20,941 bases of DNA from a virus, in the IMG/VR virus record IMGVR_UViG_3300006922_000237, positions 1 through 20,941 of that record, one strand, 5' to 3'. Made by a program: the position numbers and the translations under genes. Below, one piece after another: positions 15,500 through 20,941 of this stretch; the first letter of the stretch is position 1, and every line of letters starts with the position of its first letter. The notes beneath the pieces are model-generated. The model saw nothing but the letters and a program-made list of their open reading frames with translations, was not told where the DNA came from and made no database searches.

Positions 15500-18400
15500 T
15501 TATTGTATCGCACCATCTGAACAACCTGGACAAGTTTGACTTGATAGTGTGTTACCATTCCAAAAGAACAATCCCTCACTATGTTTTATATAATTACCTG
15601 CAGGAAGAAATATGGTACAATCAGAATTTGTAAATACTGCACTTGCAGTTGCTAAAGAGGTTGAATTTATATAAACAAAAACTGGTTTACCACCACAACA
15701 AACACTTAAAGCAGATGTTGATACATTGGCTTGTATCTCGGTACAAGGTGCTTGTGTTGTAGTTGGTGCTTGTGTTGTCGTTGTACTTATGTATGCTTGA
15801 CAAGCTGCACAATCTGCAAAATCCAAGAAATTATCTACATCACCATTTGCACCTGAACCTCCATCTTGTAATGATGAGTAACATATAGAACCATCTGATA
15901 TAACTGATGGAAAATTATTTGTTTGATTAAACACCTCTATAATGGTATCATCTGCACTACAATTACTTTGTAAACTTCTATATATTCTATAAAATATAGA
16001 TGGTTGTGTTGTGGTAGTTGTAACAGGAACTTGTGTTGTTGTCGATATTCCTAAACAATCATCACAAGTTGAAAATCCAGTTGCAAATTTACTTGTAGGA
16101 AAACAACCTAAATTAAATTCATTATCACTTTGAGTGTTTGGTGTTCTATCAATAAAAGTCCAACAATCGTTATTAGAAATTTGTTTTATAAATTGTGGAA
16201 ATTCATTTTTATTATTTCCAATTACTTCAATTCTGTCATCACCACACTTTAAATATCTTGCAAAATCTGTCATTGTTGGACAAGTTTCACTTGGAGTTGG
16301 TTTTACAGTGTTACAAGAAGCATTAATTGTTATGGTTAAAGTTTCGGTTGTAGTTACGTTTTCAAGTATAGTAAAACATTCATTTGTTTGAACACTTAAA
16401 ACAACCCTTTCGCCAACACTAAAATTTGCATTATATTGAACTGTTAATCTATCTTGCGAATTATCTTTCTCAACTAAAAATCCATCAGGTGTTACAACAT
16501 CAGGATCACATTCAGGACAACTTGCCGTATTTAAAAGGTTTGTGCCGTTAAATTGTCTGTAATTTACTAAATCTTCAGACAAAAATTGTGCATTTGTTAG
16601 AGTTGTACAAGTATCATCAATAAATACTTTTGTTGTGTTTGTATTGTCAGTAAAAGATTCACCATTTATATAAAATGTTCTTGATGTTGGTGAACTACAA
16701 CATAAATTGAATGCAGTATCACTTCGATAAAGTGTAATTGCTTTACAAGTTTGAGGATTTGTAGGTTCAACATCAGGTTCAGGGGTATCAGCACAAGCCC
16801 CACTAATTGTTGCAAGACCTGATAAACTTATTAATGATTGACCTATTGATATTACATAACAATCGTTACCTGTTGATGAAATTGTAACCTCATCACCAAC
16901 AGCTTTAGAAGCATCATAAGGAACTGAAACTGAAGTGCTATCTAATAATTTTCTCAATCTCCAAGAATTCCAAGTATATTGTTCTCTTTGTCCTGCCGTT
17001 GGCACACTTTCACCTGTCGTGTTTATTGCATAAGCGTTAAAATAGTGTGCAACACCTGCAGTTAATGTAAGTGTTGGACTTGTAACACTTGTTGTATTTA
17101 AACTAAAACTTAAAACACCTGATATGTTTTGACCTGTTGCAACTGGTATTTTTCTATTTTTAGTATAATCGTTTCCATCAGTTCCAAAATAAAAACCATA
17201 TTCGGTAACATTACTTGTGCCTATATCTGTAATTTTACCCCTTACAGTCATAGATGTATTTTTTACATCACTGTTTGCAAGAATTTCATTGGTTACACTT
17301 GGACTTGCAGATGGTGGTTGTGTTGTAGGTTCAACTGCACCAGGTGTATAGTTAATCCTATCACCAACACCCTCAGTAAAAATATTTGTTTTTACATAAG
17401 CAGCAATAAAATATGTTTCTCCAGTGACCAAACCTGTTTGATTAGATACATAACTTGCAGTTGTGTCTGTTGAAAAAACCTTTGGGTTCGATTCTATAAT
17501 AGGATTTGTTCCAAAATAAAAACCTCTTTCAATTACCTCTAAACCTCTGTCATTTGTTATTGTAGCATTCAAAGTTACACTTGTTGATGTTGTATTTGTA
17601 ACATCATCAGTCGTTACTAATGGGTTTATTATTGTTTGGTTTTGGTCAGTTTCTCCTGTTTGACCTGCTGACAATGCTTTATCATAATAATTACTATTAG
17701 AAACAACATACCAACTCGCATTTGCTTGAAAAACTCTTGAATTTGTTATTCTTAAAATATTTTCTAAAACTTTTTTTGATGAAAGTTTCGCAAAATTATC
17801 AGTAAATGCAAATTCATTAACTAATATATCTTGAAATAAATTATTGTTACCTGTTATTACAGAACCTGCAATAGTTGTGTATCGTATGTTATTTTGTATA
17901 AAAATATCAAAATCTAATCCAGTAAATGATAATATTTTATGTAAATAATAAAATGCAGAATCTAAATTAGTTTGATCGGTTGCACCAACTTTAATTGTAC
18001 CATCAGCATTAGTATTTATATTACCATCAGGTACTAAATAAGAATCAAGAGTTCCCAAGTTATCTATTGCTCTTAAACTAATGTCAAATGGTTTTGATTG
18101 TATTGCTTCTTGAAAGGTATCAGAAACTAAAAACCCCTCCCAATAAACTTGAAAAATTGTTGATGCTGCCCAATTATAATCGGTTTCTTGCCAATTAGTA
18201 TCTGCAACTTGCCAAAGTGGTGAATTAATATCAGCTGCTTCATCTTCAACCCCAACATTAACCCTTACCTTATATTCTCTTTCATCAAAATTTATAAATT
18301 CATCATAAGATATAGTTTCGGTAGTTTTAATATTTAGCACACAAGATGAACCTATAATTGGATTATAAAAATCCTCATCATTAGTGTATGTAATAATAAC

Positions 18401-18523
18401 TGGGTTGTCAGTACCTACAATAGCAAATACATCACCAATATAATCCTTTTTTAGAATTTGGACACTTCTTTTATTTCCCTTGATGTCTGAAAAATCAAGT
18501 TCATATTTAACTCCGTAAGCCAT
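15500..18523 (-). CDS. Large modular tail protein (Ig-like and Cys-rich repeats, Thr-rich linkers)
   Basis: A 1007-residue protein. Residues 1-300 form a structural N-terminal part (MAYGVKYELDFSDIKGNKRS, EGFLVSDTFQEAIQSKPFDI) typical of tail proteins encoded after the tape measure. Two Ig/FN3-like modules follow (about 301-397 and 408-517), sharing TSVTLNATIT.../SMTVRGKIT and ERGFYFGT/EYGFYFGT. Residues 525-1001 hold repeated Cys modules in the order a-b-a-c-c-b, many ending in CPEC, CDDC, CAAC or CPGC. Two Thr/Gln/Pro linkers (826-842 and 911-926) look like mucin-type spacers. The start overlaps the tape measure stop by one base. The job is probably tail tip or host binding, with modules as exposed adhesive units. 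Role is inferred from position; the repeats are seen directly. Confidence 0.8.
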   Translation of the reverse strand: MAYGVKYELDFSDIKGNKRSVQILKKDYIGDVFAIVGTDNPVIITYTNDEDFYNPIIGSSCVLNIKTTETISYDEFINFDEREYKVRVNVGVEDEAADINSPLWQVADTNWQETDYNWAASTIFQVYWEGFLVSDTFQEAIQSKPFDISLRAIDNLGTLDSYLVPDGNINTNADGTIKVGATDQTNLDSAFYYLHKILSFTGLDFDIFIQNNIRYTTIAGSVITGNNNLFQDILVNEFAFTDNFAKLSSKKVLENILRITNSRVFQANASWYVVSNSNYYDKALSAGQTGETDQNQTIINPLVTTDDVTNTTSTSVTLNATITNDRGLEVIERGFYFGTNPIIESNPKVFSTDTTASYVSNQTGLVTGETYFIAAYVKTNIFTEGVGDRINYTPGAVEPTTQPPSASPSVTNEILANSDVKNTSMTVRGKITDIGTSNVTEYGFYFGTDGNDYTKNRKIPVATGQNISGVLSFSLNTTSVTSPTLTLTAGVAHYFNAYAINTTGESVPTAGQREQYTWNSWRLRKLLDSTSVSVPYDASKAVGDEVTISSTGNDCYVISIGQSLISLSGLATISGACADTPEPDVEPTNPQTCKAITLYRSDTAFNLCCSSPTSRTFYINGESFTDNTNTTKVFIDDTCTTLTNAQFLSEDLVNYRQFNGTNLLNTASCPECDPDVVTPDGFLVEKDNSQDRLTVQYNANFSVGERVVLSVQTNECFTILENVTTTETLTITINASCNTVKPTPSETCPTMTDFARYLKCGDDRIEVIGNNKNEFPQFIKQISNNDCWTFIDRTPNTQSDNEFNLGCFPTSKFATGFSTCDDCLGISTTTQVPVTTTTTQPSIFYRIYRSLQSNCSADDTIIEVFNQTNNFPSVISDGSICYSSLQDGGSGANGDVDNFLDFADCAACQAYISTTTTQAPTTTQAPCTEIQANVSTSALSVCCGGKPVFVYINSTSLATASAVFTNSDCTIFLPAGNYIKHSEGLFFWNGNTLSSQTCPGCSDGAIQ
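15746..15787 (-). repeat. Tandem codon repeat encoding Thr/Gln-Ala-Pro linker
   Basis: Near-identical short DNA units (GGTGCTTGTGTTGT twice on the plus strand, 18 bases apart) encode the linker TTTTQAPTTTQAP in the large tail protein. Such tandem units can expand or contract by slippage. Confidence 0.6.
15998..16048 (-). repeat. Low-complexity region encoding Thr-rich linker
   Basis: Encodes STTTQVPVTTTTTQPS, the second Thr-rich spacer of the large tail protein, between its two type-c Cys modules. The DNA consists of repeated TGTTGT-like units on the plus strand, similar to the repeat at 15746-15787. Confidence 0.5.
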
Positions 18524-20469
18524 TATTTAAATCTATTTCTGTTTCGTTCTGCTCTTTGCAAAGCAACTACTAAATCTTGACCTCTTAAAACAAACTCTCC
18601 TTGCATTGCACCACCACTATTTCCTAACATACCTTTTAATTTATTTAATGGTGCTATAACTTCAGGGTTTGATCTTGCACCAGGATATTCTCCAACTAAA
18701 GCATTTGTAGGACCTGAATATATACCTCCTTTTGCATTAGGTACTGGCGACATCATACTACCCATACCACTTAATGCGGCAAAAACTGTTCTAAAATTTA
18801 AACCAAAAATCGCACCTATTATAGCCGACAATGCTGCTGCTACTAATAATCTTTTAATTAATGCTTCAAGTTGTTGCCCTATTTTTTTAAAAGCATTCTC
18901 ACCCTCACCTAAATTAGCAAAAGCATCTACTAAGGTTGTACCAATAGTAGTTGCAAAAGACATTATCATGTCATTGTTTTTCTTTAATTCTTCAGCTAAT
19001 GGTATTATTGCATTTTCTTTAAAATCAGTAATTTTTTGAGTTATAGTTTGCATAGATGTTGAAAAGCCATTTGTAACCATTGTGCTTTTATCCATTACTT
19101 GTTGCCAAGTCAAACCATATTTTGCAGTTTCTGTCGATGCAGTATGTAAGGATTTTGGTAAATCATTATTTAAAAGACCTATAACAGTTTGCAAACCTGT
19201 TCCTAATTTAAATGGATTTATACCTAATAATCCACCTCCCATTGCTTCATCACCTGATTCTGTTGGGGTAGTTGTTGGTGTATCAAAAGTACCTTTTGGT
19301 TGTACTAAAGAAAAAGGTTGCCTACTTTGATTTTTACCTAATGCACCAATAAAGTCATTTTTTGCTATTGCATTTATATTGTTTTGCAATAGTTGTAATT
19401 CTGTATTAACTTTTTTAAGTGATAAAGGTTTGCCAATTATTCCCTCAATTAAATTTTTTGCATTGCTTATTTTAAGTGCCATCAAACCAACTAAAGCTGA
19501 AGTCAAAGCGATAATTATTACAGTTGTAGCTGATACCGCAGTTGCTATTGCGGTTGCTGCTGCTGCAAAAGCACCTAAAAGAATTAAAAGTGGAGGTATG
19601 ACAATAGCTAAACCACTAATTAGTAGTGTTATTCTTTGTGTACTTGGTGATAATTTTTCAAATGATTTAACTAACTCTCCAATCTTTTTAGATAAAGCAG
19701 GAATACCCTCTTTTAAATTTAATGCTTCTGCTATTTCTTTACCAAGTGTTGCAAGTGCTATATTTACATTATCTTTTAATGTACTAAACAATCCCTCTAA
19801 AGTTTGTGAAAGAACCTTTAAACCATCGTTAAAACGACCTTGTGAACCTGTTGCAAACTCAAAACCATCTTGTAAAACTTTAAAAGATATTTTACCCTCT
19901 GATGCCATATCCATTATTTCACTCCTTGCAACTCCCATTGACTTTGAAAGTATATCAAGAATCGGCACACCATTGTTTATAAACTGCCTTAAATCCCTGG
20001 TCATTACTCTACCCTCTGCTGCTGCCTGACCAAATGCTACGGCTATACCTGTCAAATTACCACCTGAAACTGCTGCAACATCACCCAACATTTTAAGAGA
20101 TTTAAAAGCATCATCTGATGTCTGCCCAAATCCCATTAACATATTGTTCACTCTTGTAAGTTCCTCTAATTGTAGAGGTGTTTCTGCACTAAATTTAACC
20201 AATCTTTCAAATGCTTTTGCACCCTCCTCTGCTGATCCATTTAATGTATTTAATGTAACTTGTAATCTTTCAAATTTAGCGGCTTGTCTTAAAGCTAATG
20301 TACCAACTGCAAGTAAAGGAAGTGATAACCTTGTGGACAACATTTTACCTGTCCTTGTAGCTTGTTGACTAAATCTCTCAATTTTACCCCTTGATTTATC
20401 AATATTAACATTGAACTGTGCAGTTTTTGCAATAAACTCGAATAATAATCTAAAATCATTGTTTGCCAT
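18523..20469 (-). CDS. Tail tape measure protein
   Basis: A 648-residue protein. Residues about 60-240 carry the tape measure N-terminal domain: RLQVTLNTLNGSAEEGAKAF, FSAETPLQLEELTRV, the MLMGFGQTSDDAFKSLKMLG and GDVAAVSGG segments, then AFGQAAAEGRVMTRDLRQFI and NGVPILD. Hydrophobic helices lie at about 280-334 and 540-560, and the C-terminus has the usual AKGGIYSGPTNALVGEYPGA and PEVIAPLNKL. Tape measure proteins set tail length and pass through the tail tube. At 648 residues the tail would be short to medium for a siphovirus. The gene follows the chaperone pair, as is standard. The ATG at 20469 is four bases after a TATTTTTG box. A Gly/Pro/Thr linker (about 395-415) separates the halves. 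Confidence 0.93.
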   Translation of the reverse strand: MANNDFRLLFEFIAKTAQFNVNIDKSRGKIERFSQQATRTGKMLSTRLSLPLLAVGTLALRQAAKFERLQVTLNTLNGSAEEGAKAFERLVKFSAETPLQLEELTRVNNMLMGFGQTSDDAFKSLKMLGDVAAVSGGNLTGIAVAFGQAAAEGRVMTRDLRQFINNGVPILDILSKSMGVARSEIMDMASEGKISFKVLQDGFEFATGSQGRFNDGLKVLSQTLEGLFSTLKDNVNIALATLGKEIAEALNLKEGIPALSKKIGELVKSFEKLSPSTQRITLLISGLAIVIPPLLILLGAFAAAATAIATAVSATTVIIIALTSALVGLMALKISNAKNLIEGIIGKPLSLKKVNTELQLLQNNINAIAKNDFIGALGKNQSRQPFSLVQPKGTFDTPTTTPTESGDEAMGGGLLGINPFKLGTGLQTVIGLLNNDLPKSLHTASTETAKYGLTWQQVMDKSTMVTNGFSTSMQTITQKITDFKENAIIPLAEELKKNNDMIMSFATTIGTTLVDAFANLGEGENAFKKIGQQLEALIKRLLVAAALSAIIGAIFGLNFRTVFAALSGMGSMMSPVPNAKGGIYSGPTNALVGEYPGARSNPEVIAPLNKLKGMLGNSGGAMQGEFVLRGQDLVVALQRAERNRNRFK

Positions 20470-20482: not shown

Positions 20483-20812
20483 CTATTTTTTATTCAACTT
20501 ACTATTAATGAGTTCTTGATACTTTTCAAAATCTTCTCTCGATGTTTTAGCCGTATTTCTCTTTATGTTGTCTTGTGGTAATTCAAAGAGTTGGTGGGGT
20601 TTTATCATATCAGATTTCTTACCAACATTAACATTGTGAATCATTGTCGCAACAAAACGATGTTGTTCCCAAAGTGCATTTATTTGGATTACATAGGATT
20701 CCGACATAAGTTTGTTTTCCTTAAAAGTATTTGTCCAAAAGTCGTTAGGATTAATACCACAATAACCAATGTAGAAATCGGTTATATCCTCCCAAGAAGT
20801 TTTATCGGTTAT
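20483..20812 (-). CDS. Tail assembly chaperone, -1 frame extension (gpT-like)
   Basis: This frame is open from the A run at 20812-20821 to the stop at 20483, about 109 codons, beginning ITDKTSWEDITDFYIGYCG, INPNDFWTNTFKENKL and running through INALWEQHRFVATMI and HQLFELP. The NPNDFW...T...E pattern and the W-x2-x-R...I...P-x-x-L-F-x-L-P ending fit the second half of siphovirus tail assembly chaperones (lambda gpT or equivalents). An internal ATG at 20707 could give a 74-residue product, but it would start inside the conserved segment, so expression by frameshift from the upstream gene is more likely. The fused protein would coat the tape measure during tail-tube assembly and is not expected in the virion. 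Confidence 0.78.
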   Translation of the reverse strand: MTDKTSWEDITDFYIGYCGINPNDFWTNTFKENKLMSESYVIQINALWEQHRFVATMIHNVNVGKKSDMIKPHQLFELPQDNIKRNTAKTSREDFEKYQELINSKLNKK

Positions 20813-20941
20813 TTTTTTTTTGAATCAGTTTGTGGATTCCTATTAAAACCTGTATTTAAATCATTACCCAAGATTCGAGATTCTGTCATTGCCTTGATAA
20901 TCTTCTCAATATCCTCTGAAGTAATATCTTCAAGCCAATTA
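20809..20941 (-). CDS. Tail assembly chaperone, zero-frame product, C-terminal end (gpG-like, partial)
   Basis: The last 43 residues of a gene that starts beyond the window: NWLEDITSEDIEKIIKAMTE, SRILGNDLNTGFNRNP, QTDSKKK and stop at 20809. The helical N-part and disordered Gln/Ser/Lys end agree with the zero-frame chaperone product found just upstream of the tape measure gene in siphophages. The final codons lie in a run of ten A residues immediately followed by the TAA stop, where a -1 shift would join it to the next frame. Confidence 0.72.
   Translation of the reverse strand, partial: NWLEDITSEDIEKIIKAMTESRILGNDLNTGFNRNPQTDSKKK
20812..20821 (-). promoter_or_regulatory. Ten-A slippery run for -1 frameshift in tail chaperone
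   Basis: On the minus strand TC is followed by ten A and then TAACCG. The zero frame reads TCA AAA AAA AAA TAA and stops. Re-reading one base gives ATA ACC GAT and an open frame of about 109 codons. Ribosomal -1 slipping on A-AAA-AAA or transcriptional slippage adding one A would both produce the fusion. Confidence 0.75.

Follow-up and report, generated by a model that had tools for sequence, protein, structure and literature searches.

Tail assembly chaperone genes provide a textbook example of ribosomal -1 frameshifting, and the ratio of the two products is important for tail assembly. The window analysed here, a 20,941-base virus record covering part of a tailed phage whose genes lie on the minus strand, carries at one end two small reading frames that overlap at a run of ten A's immediately followed by a stop codon. 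This arrangement raises two questions: whether a single start gives rise to both a short and a long chaperone, and whether the machine that slips on the A-run is the ribosome, RNA polymerase, or both. The features concerned are as follows.

20812 to 20821, minus strand: putative slip site of ten A's, in the frame TCA AAA AAA AAA, with the stop adjoining.
20809 to 20811, minus strand: zero-frame stop codon TAA, directly 3' of the A-run.
20809 to 20941, minus strand: last 43 codons and stop TAA of ORF1 (gpG-like, zero frame), with its start beyond the window.
20483 to 20824, minus strand: ORF2 (T-like, -1 frame), 113 amino acids plus stop, recognised as an open frame with a conserved domain.
18523 to 20469, minus strand: tape measure protein, matching the tail length tape measure protein of PHROGs at 9.4e-45.

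Direct reading of the minus strand gives ...GAT TCA AAA AAA AAA TAA CCG..., in agreement with the zero-frame end described in the initial annotation, and the ten A's hold two A_AAA_AAA heptamers in frame. The -1 frame is closed upstream by a TGA at 20827-20825, stays open from 20824 to 20486 and ends in a stop at 20485-20483; it had likewise been described correctly as open through the A-run down to 20483. Its 113-residue translation (FKKKITDKTSWEDI...SKLNKK) includes all three of the motifs that had been picked out as chaperone-like, NPNDFW, WEQHRF and HQLFELP, and, as also noted earlier, the frame has a sole internal ATG, at 20707-20705, which lies within the conserved region. The tape measure gene starts 13 bases after the end of ORF2. 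Because the window is cut at 20941 with the zero frame still running off its end, the start of ORF1 must lie outside it. The upstream extension that had been suggested was supplied by relatives, which gave a complete ORF1 of 123 amino acids (MTKQRGYYTLKIGG...); complete versions of ORF1 in relatives (MTKQRGYYTLKIGGKNRTLHFSMNFW...) are 121-138 amino acids long. The partial ORF1 of the window (20809-20941), near the contig end, differs from its near relatives at two residues (DLNTGF for DLNAGL).

Relatives were collected with the second frame, the tape measure protein and profiles of either frame, yielding at least 394 loci with both parts. Many of these are overlapping pieces of the same contig, and dropping identical 300-base junctions left at least 199 distinct junctions. 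The second frame lies at -1 to the first in 394 of the 394 loci listed (199 distinct junctions), and in 171 of 176 representatives the -1 frame has no ATG, GTG or TTG ahead of the conserved domain. ORF2 could be a separate protein that begins at the ATG present at 20705-20707 or at a rare start codon, but translation from that ATG would cut off the conserved NPNDFW region, the codon is Leu or Ile in many relatives, and the general lack of a start before the domain speaks against any other entry point; we regard this reading as very improbable. The initial annotation had named a separate downstream gene with its own start as the finding that would contradict a frameshift, and no such gene was found. 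It had also named an A-run of a length that simply fuses the two frames. Homopolymers are indeed prone to sequencing and assembly errors, and such an error would make the two frames one gene. However, the exact string TCA AAA AAA AAA TAA occurs in 34 of 43 contigs among the matches listed in the second-frame search, relatives keep either exactly ten A's or nine plus a G, and variants with A9G or GGGAAAG at this place maintain the same -1 relation, leaving an error only a negligible chance.

The second frame (window 20486-20818) has 99-100% amino-acid identity in about 20 contigs, and in many of these the tape measure proteins are only 49-79% identical. Much of this contrast may be explained by a mosaic centre of the tape measure gene: the interval 18736-19666 on the minus strand (tape measure codons about 268-578) has no DNA match in most relatives, and the flanks on both sides have about 70-95% DNA identity to them, so that the centre of the gene has the appearance of an exchanged module. 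Immediately following the tape measure gene, positions 15500-18523 encode a protein of 1007 amino acids with Cys-rich stretches and TTTTTQ/TTTQAP linkers, for which no match was found in Pfam or PHROG.

What kind of proteins do the two frames encode? The full ORF1, taken from a relative, matches phrog_2115, a tail protein, at 1.4e-6. Its AlphaFold model has a mean pLDDT of 81 and gave 13 matches with E of 1e-3 or less in BFVD, one of them named tail assembly chaperone; the same name is also found on many weaker ORF1 matches in BFVD that miss this E limit, and most such names are automatic. On the strength of this model, the predicted fold of ORF1 resembles those of tail assembly chaperones. 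Neither the ORF1 model nor the ORF2 model had a match in the PDB, and neither protein had anything above the cut-off in Pfam. ORF2 has a weak match to phrog_16333 and no relative among annotated phages, where ORF1 has one weak match only, in Cellulophaga phage phi10:1. The gene order points in the same direction as the fold. The window ends before the gene upstream of ORF1, but in a relative (L084) a major tail protein (Pfam PF06199; phrog_1407) ends 52 bases before ORF1, giving the order major tail protein, ORF1, ORF2, tape measure. At the protein level, phages of Cellulophaga, Tenacibaculum, Flavobacterium and Bacteroides are among the best annotated neighbours, and a Shine-Dalgarno-like motif precedes the ORF1 start in none of 175 relatives; both observations would fit a host in Bacteroidota. 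A host assignment through four matching contigs in metagenome-assembled bins was not trusted.

Because both frames are conserved as proteins, and the second is always at -1 and has no start of its own, expression by a frameshift from one start is indicated. We therefore consider it highly probable, from these comparisons of sequence, that a programmed -1 frameshift at the ten A's makes two tail assembly chaperones, whichever machine slips, which upholds the gpG/gpGT-like pair proposed in the initial annotation. Translation from the single start with no shift would yield a short chaperone ending ...TDSKKK (gpG-like), and a -1 slip at the A-run would yield a long fusion, ...TDSKKKITDKTSWEDI... 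(gpGT-like), so that ORF2 would be made only in fused form, as the C-terminal half of the long product. By analogy with lambda, the short form may coat the tape measure protein, the long form may recruit the tail tube protein, and the ratio of short to long would matter for tail assembly.

A standard slip heptamer is present in frame at the overlap in the window (A_AAA_AAA) and at nearly all distinct junctions, and the family has two main forms of this homologous site. GGGAAAG, which we take to be lambda's own slip heptamer, stands in the right frame at 111 of the 199 distinct junctions, and about 79 of the 199, the window included, have runs of nine or more A's with an in-frame A_AAA_AAA. A_AAA_AAG alone is found at 2/199 junctions and GGGAAAC at 1/199; A_AAA_AAG is also present in the A9G members and in one lineage with seven A's. 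The contexts of the A class vary by lineage: some have TCA, ACA, CCA or TTA, then three codons for Lys and the stop, and others have GAA/CAA ahead of AAA AAA and a codon whose first base is A. A stop adjoining the slip site is seen in many GGGAAAG members as well. A small clade of six representatives (L343, L346, L381, L382, L393 and L404) keeps the -1 relation with no clear standard heptamer, its overlap reading, for example, CCG GTA AAG GTC or GCG GCA AAG CCG. In a quick tree of 176 representatives, parsimony gives about ten changes for the A-run form, two of which are forced by strongly supported branches. AT-rich drift as the source of the A-runs was considered and dropped, the GC medians of the two classes being close (0.33 in the A class, 0.35 in the G class).

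The two forms also differ in the RNA that follows them. The 60 bases 3' of the site fold better than shuffled sequences in the GGGAAAG class (mean z -2.2, 103 sequences), and the same test gives a mean z of -0.95 in the A class (64 sequences). Many GGGAAAG members have an arm, 5-6 bases 3' of the site, that pairs with the codons of a Gly-Gln-Val-Gly stretch about 40-50 bases further on; the pairing is absent in one GGGAAAG clade (spacing 50-53) and in some other members. In an alignment of 38 members the paired fraction is 83.5% of cells, with a maximum of 53% for slid controls. There are 27 compensatory cells in this group against 10.1 in shuffles (0/500 as high), and a second group of 24 pairs at 92.3% with 9 compensatory cells against 2.6 in shuffles, counts that are not to be read as probabilities because the sequences share ancestry and their own single folds had suggested the stem. 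One RNAalifold consensus gave no structure, though the pair counts back this long-range stem. Its discovery in single folds biases the counts in its favour, but the shuffled and slid controls fall well short of them, and on this comparative evidence a stem in the GGGAAAG class appears supported. In the A class, the same stem search scored no better than swapped controls. Some single A-class sequences do fold well 3' of the site, and the 62 bases after the run in the window have a z of -0.25; as a class, the A-run form appears to have no conserved stem.

Other candidate signals did not hold up across the family. A Shine-Dalgarno-like stimulator was dropped as a family feature: such motifs precede between 2% (G class) and 20% (A class) of slip sites, besides being absent from all 175 ORF1 starts. 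Nascent hairpins have been described as stimulating RNA polymerase slippage (PMC5009743), and the region upstream of the slip site has an average z of -1.2 in the A class and -0.45 in the GGGAAAG class. This tendency is uneven among clades and the hairpin is absent in the window (z +0.9), and the upstream hairpin was set aside as a stimulator of RNA polymerase slippage. Among the A-class clades, the L268-L292 group and L116-L119 have a predicted hairpin 10-70 bases upstream of the slip-site end, with z about -3. A short third-frame extension, a possible sign of transcriptional slippage, was not decisive across lineages and was likewise dropped.

The length of the A-run bears more directly on the slipping machine. 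Counted from the tree and the contexts, there are 12 A-type lineages, 10 with nine or more A's and 2 (L267/L227 and L401) with seven. If the heptamer alone were needed, runs of nine or more would be expected at 27-44% of A_AAA_AAA sites (three codon pools), and the observed 10 of 12 has a binomial probability of 7e-5 to 6.5e-3 when the 12 lineages are treated as independent. Elsewhere in the same loci, in-frame A_AAA_AAR heptamers in other ORFs of at least 300 codons lie in runs of eight or fewer in 76 of 76 cases. Away from the junction, the numbers of 7- and 8-A runs are close to expectation, and those of 9 and of 10 or more are too low in the A class and the GGGAAAG class alike; since replication slippage could also produce such a depletion, the depletion on its own does not identify the slipping machine. 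In the window, the ten A's are the only A or T run of at least nine on the sense strand, where about 4.8 A-runs of such size would be expected from dinucleotide content. Bacterial RNA polymerase slips efficiently at nine A's or T's (PMC5009743), and a homopolymer of about nine or more at the junction, one of the marks of programmed transcriptional slippage, is present in the window's A10. When constructs of another gene family were assayed in E. coli, frameshifting was 10% at 7, 40% at 9 and 63% at 11 A's, reported without naming the slipping machine (PMC3711429).

The initial annotation had allowed for either a ribosomal or a transcriptional slip, and the present comparisons sharpen that choice rather than decide it. 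The site could work by ribosomal -1 slippage alone, with tandem tRNA-Lys slipping on A_AAA_AAA in uniform transcripts and the stop or the longer run raising the efficiency. The ribosome is indicated by the ribosomal sites of most relatives, by the 7-A lineages and by the in-frame heptamers. The lambda-type shift is described as ribosomal and G_GGA_AAG is highly shift-prone in E. coli (PMC5009743); GGGAAAG is the commonest site of the family and in many members is followed after 5-6 nt by the compensatory stem; A_AAA_AAG is found in A9G members and a 7-A lineage; and the adjoining stop is shared with many GGGAAAG members. Yet slippage of the ribosome alone leaves runs of nine or more in 10 of 12 lineages unexplained, as it does their absence from other long genes, which do tolerate in-frame heptamers within runs of 7-8, and the A class lacks a conserved stimulatory stem. 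The absence of Shine-Dalgarno-like motifs from the ORF1 ATGs makes a stimulator of that type unlikely, which also counts against it. We think this reading quite possible, a little short of even. At the other extreme, RNA polymerase slippage alone would turn A10 into mRNAs with 11 A's, with no ribosomal shift. A run of at least nine at the junction that is avoided elsewhere speaks for this reading, and there is precedent at 9-11 A's or T's in Thermus thermophilus dnaX (PMC5009743) and Citrobacter tssM1 (PMC4256274). However, ribosomes too slip on A_AAA_AAA, so some contribution from them is to be expected, and most of the family has ribosomal sites, with 7-A lineages existing as well; we consider polymerase slippage alone unlikely.

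That reading forms part of a broader one, in which RNA polymerase slippage, giving some of the mRNAs one more A, contributes at A10 either alone or together with ribosomal slippage. A polymerase share is suggested by the run-length preference (10 of 12 lineages at nine or more, none of 76 sites elsewhere) together with the missing stem in the A class. Against it, the 7-A lineages fall below the documented run of nine for efficient slippage, and lambda makes about 1 fusion per 30 (PMC5009743), whereas A-runs of nine or more give tens of percent in E. coli (PMC3711429). On the sequence evidence we judge the case for a polymerase share to be evenly poised, and favour it over ribosomal slippage alone. 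If the polymerase does contribute, phages may have switched repeatedly, in one orthologous gene, between two signals, one being GGGAAAG with its covarying stem and the other an A-run of nine or more that works largely through RNA polymerase slippage, the same chaperone ratio being set at translation in one form and at transcription in the other. We offer this tentatively, the balance lying somewhat against it.

How does this locus compare with known systems? In lambda, the gpG/gpGT site likewise lies between the major tail protein and the tape measure, with the -1 shift placed close to where the first ORF ends, and genes V, G-T and H have the same order and frame relation as the window family, which at the 111 GGGAAAG junctions presumably uses the same heptamer. 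Unlike in lambda, the site in the window is A10 followed directly by a stop, and has no conserved downstream stem, and its two frames have no match above cut-off to any Pfam family. It resembles T. thermophilus dnaX, Shigella mxiE/spa13 and Citrobacter tssM1 in having an A or T run of at least nine at the junction and no conserved stimulatory stem; tssM1 serves a machine that resembles a phage tail (PMC4256274). It differs from these poly-A slippage genes in that its A-run also holds in-frame ribosomal heptamers. Two-ORF dnaX genes from the GeneTack survey (PMC3711429) also have ten A's at the junction of two ORFs, and in some candidates the zero-frame stop directly follows the shift site (PMC5009743), but dnaX is a cellular replication gene, and its mechanism there was likewise deduced from sequence. 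Cellulophaga phage phi39:1 has two small ORFs in different frames, gp19 and gp20, upstream of a related tape measure gene, with an A8 run as the junction homopolymer at the end of the first ORF: gp19 ends at CCTATAAAAAAAAGAAGGTAG (L104 3560-3590), and the next frame is open across it. The second frame there is +1 (or -2) rather than -1, the two are annotated as hypothetical genes and are at most candidate homologues of ORF1/ORF2, and gp19/gp20 is possibly another frameshifted chaperone. A search of the open-access literature found no report of transcriptional slippage in a tail chaperone.

To our knowledge, no tail chaperone has been described as relying on transcriptional slippage. The kind of gene and the kind of shift are already known; what appears unusual is that a stop directly adjoins the A10 site and that signals have been exchanged repeatedly at a single homologous position, and it is the swapping of signals that would be new. 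Because some members have GGGAAAG and a stem where others have a bare A-run, the family amounts to a natural experiment on what sets the chaperone ratio, and it allows a clean test of RNA polymerase slippage as a substitute for ribosomal frameshifting. When these marine phages are annotated automatically, the chaperone may be split or missed.
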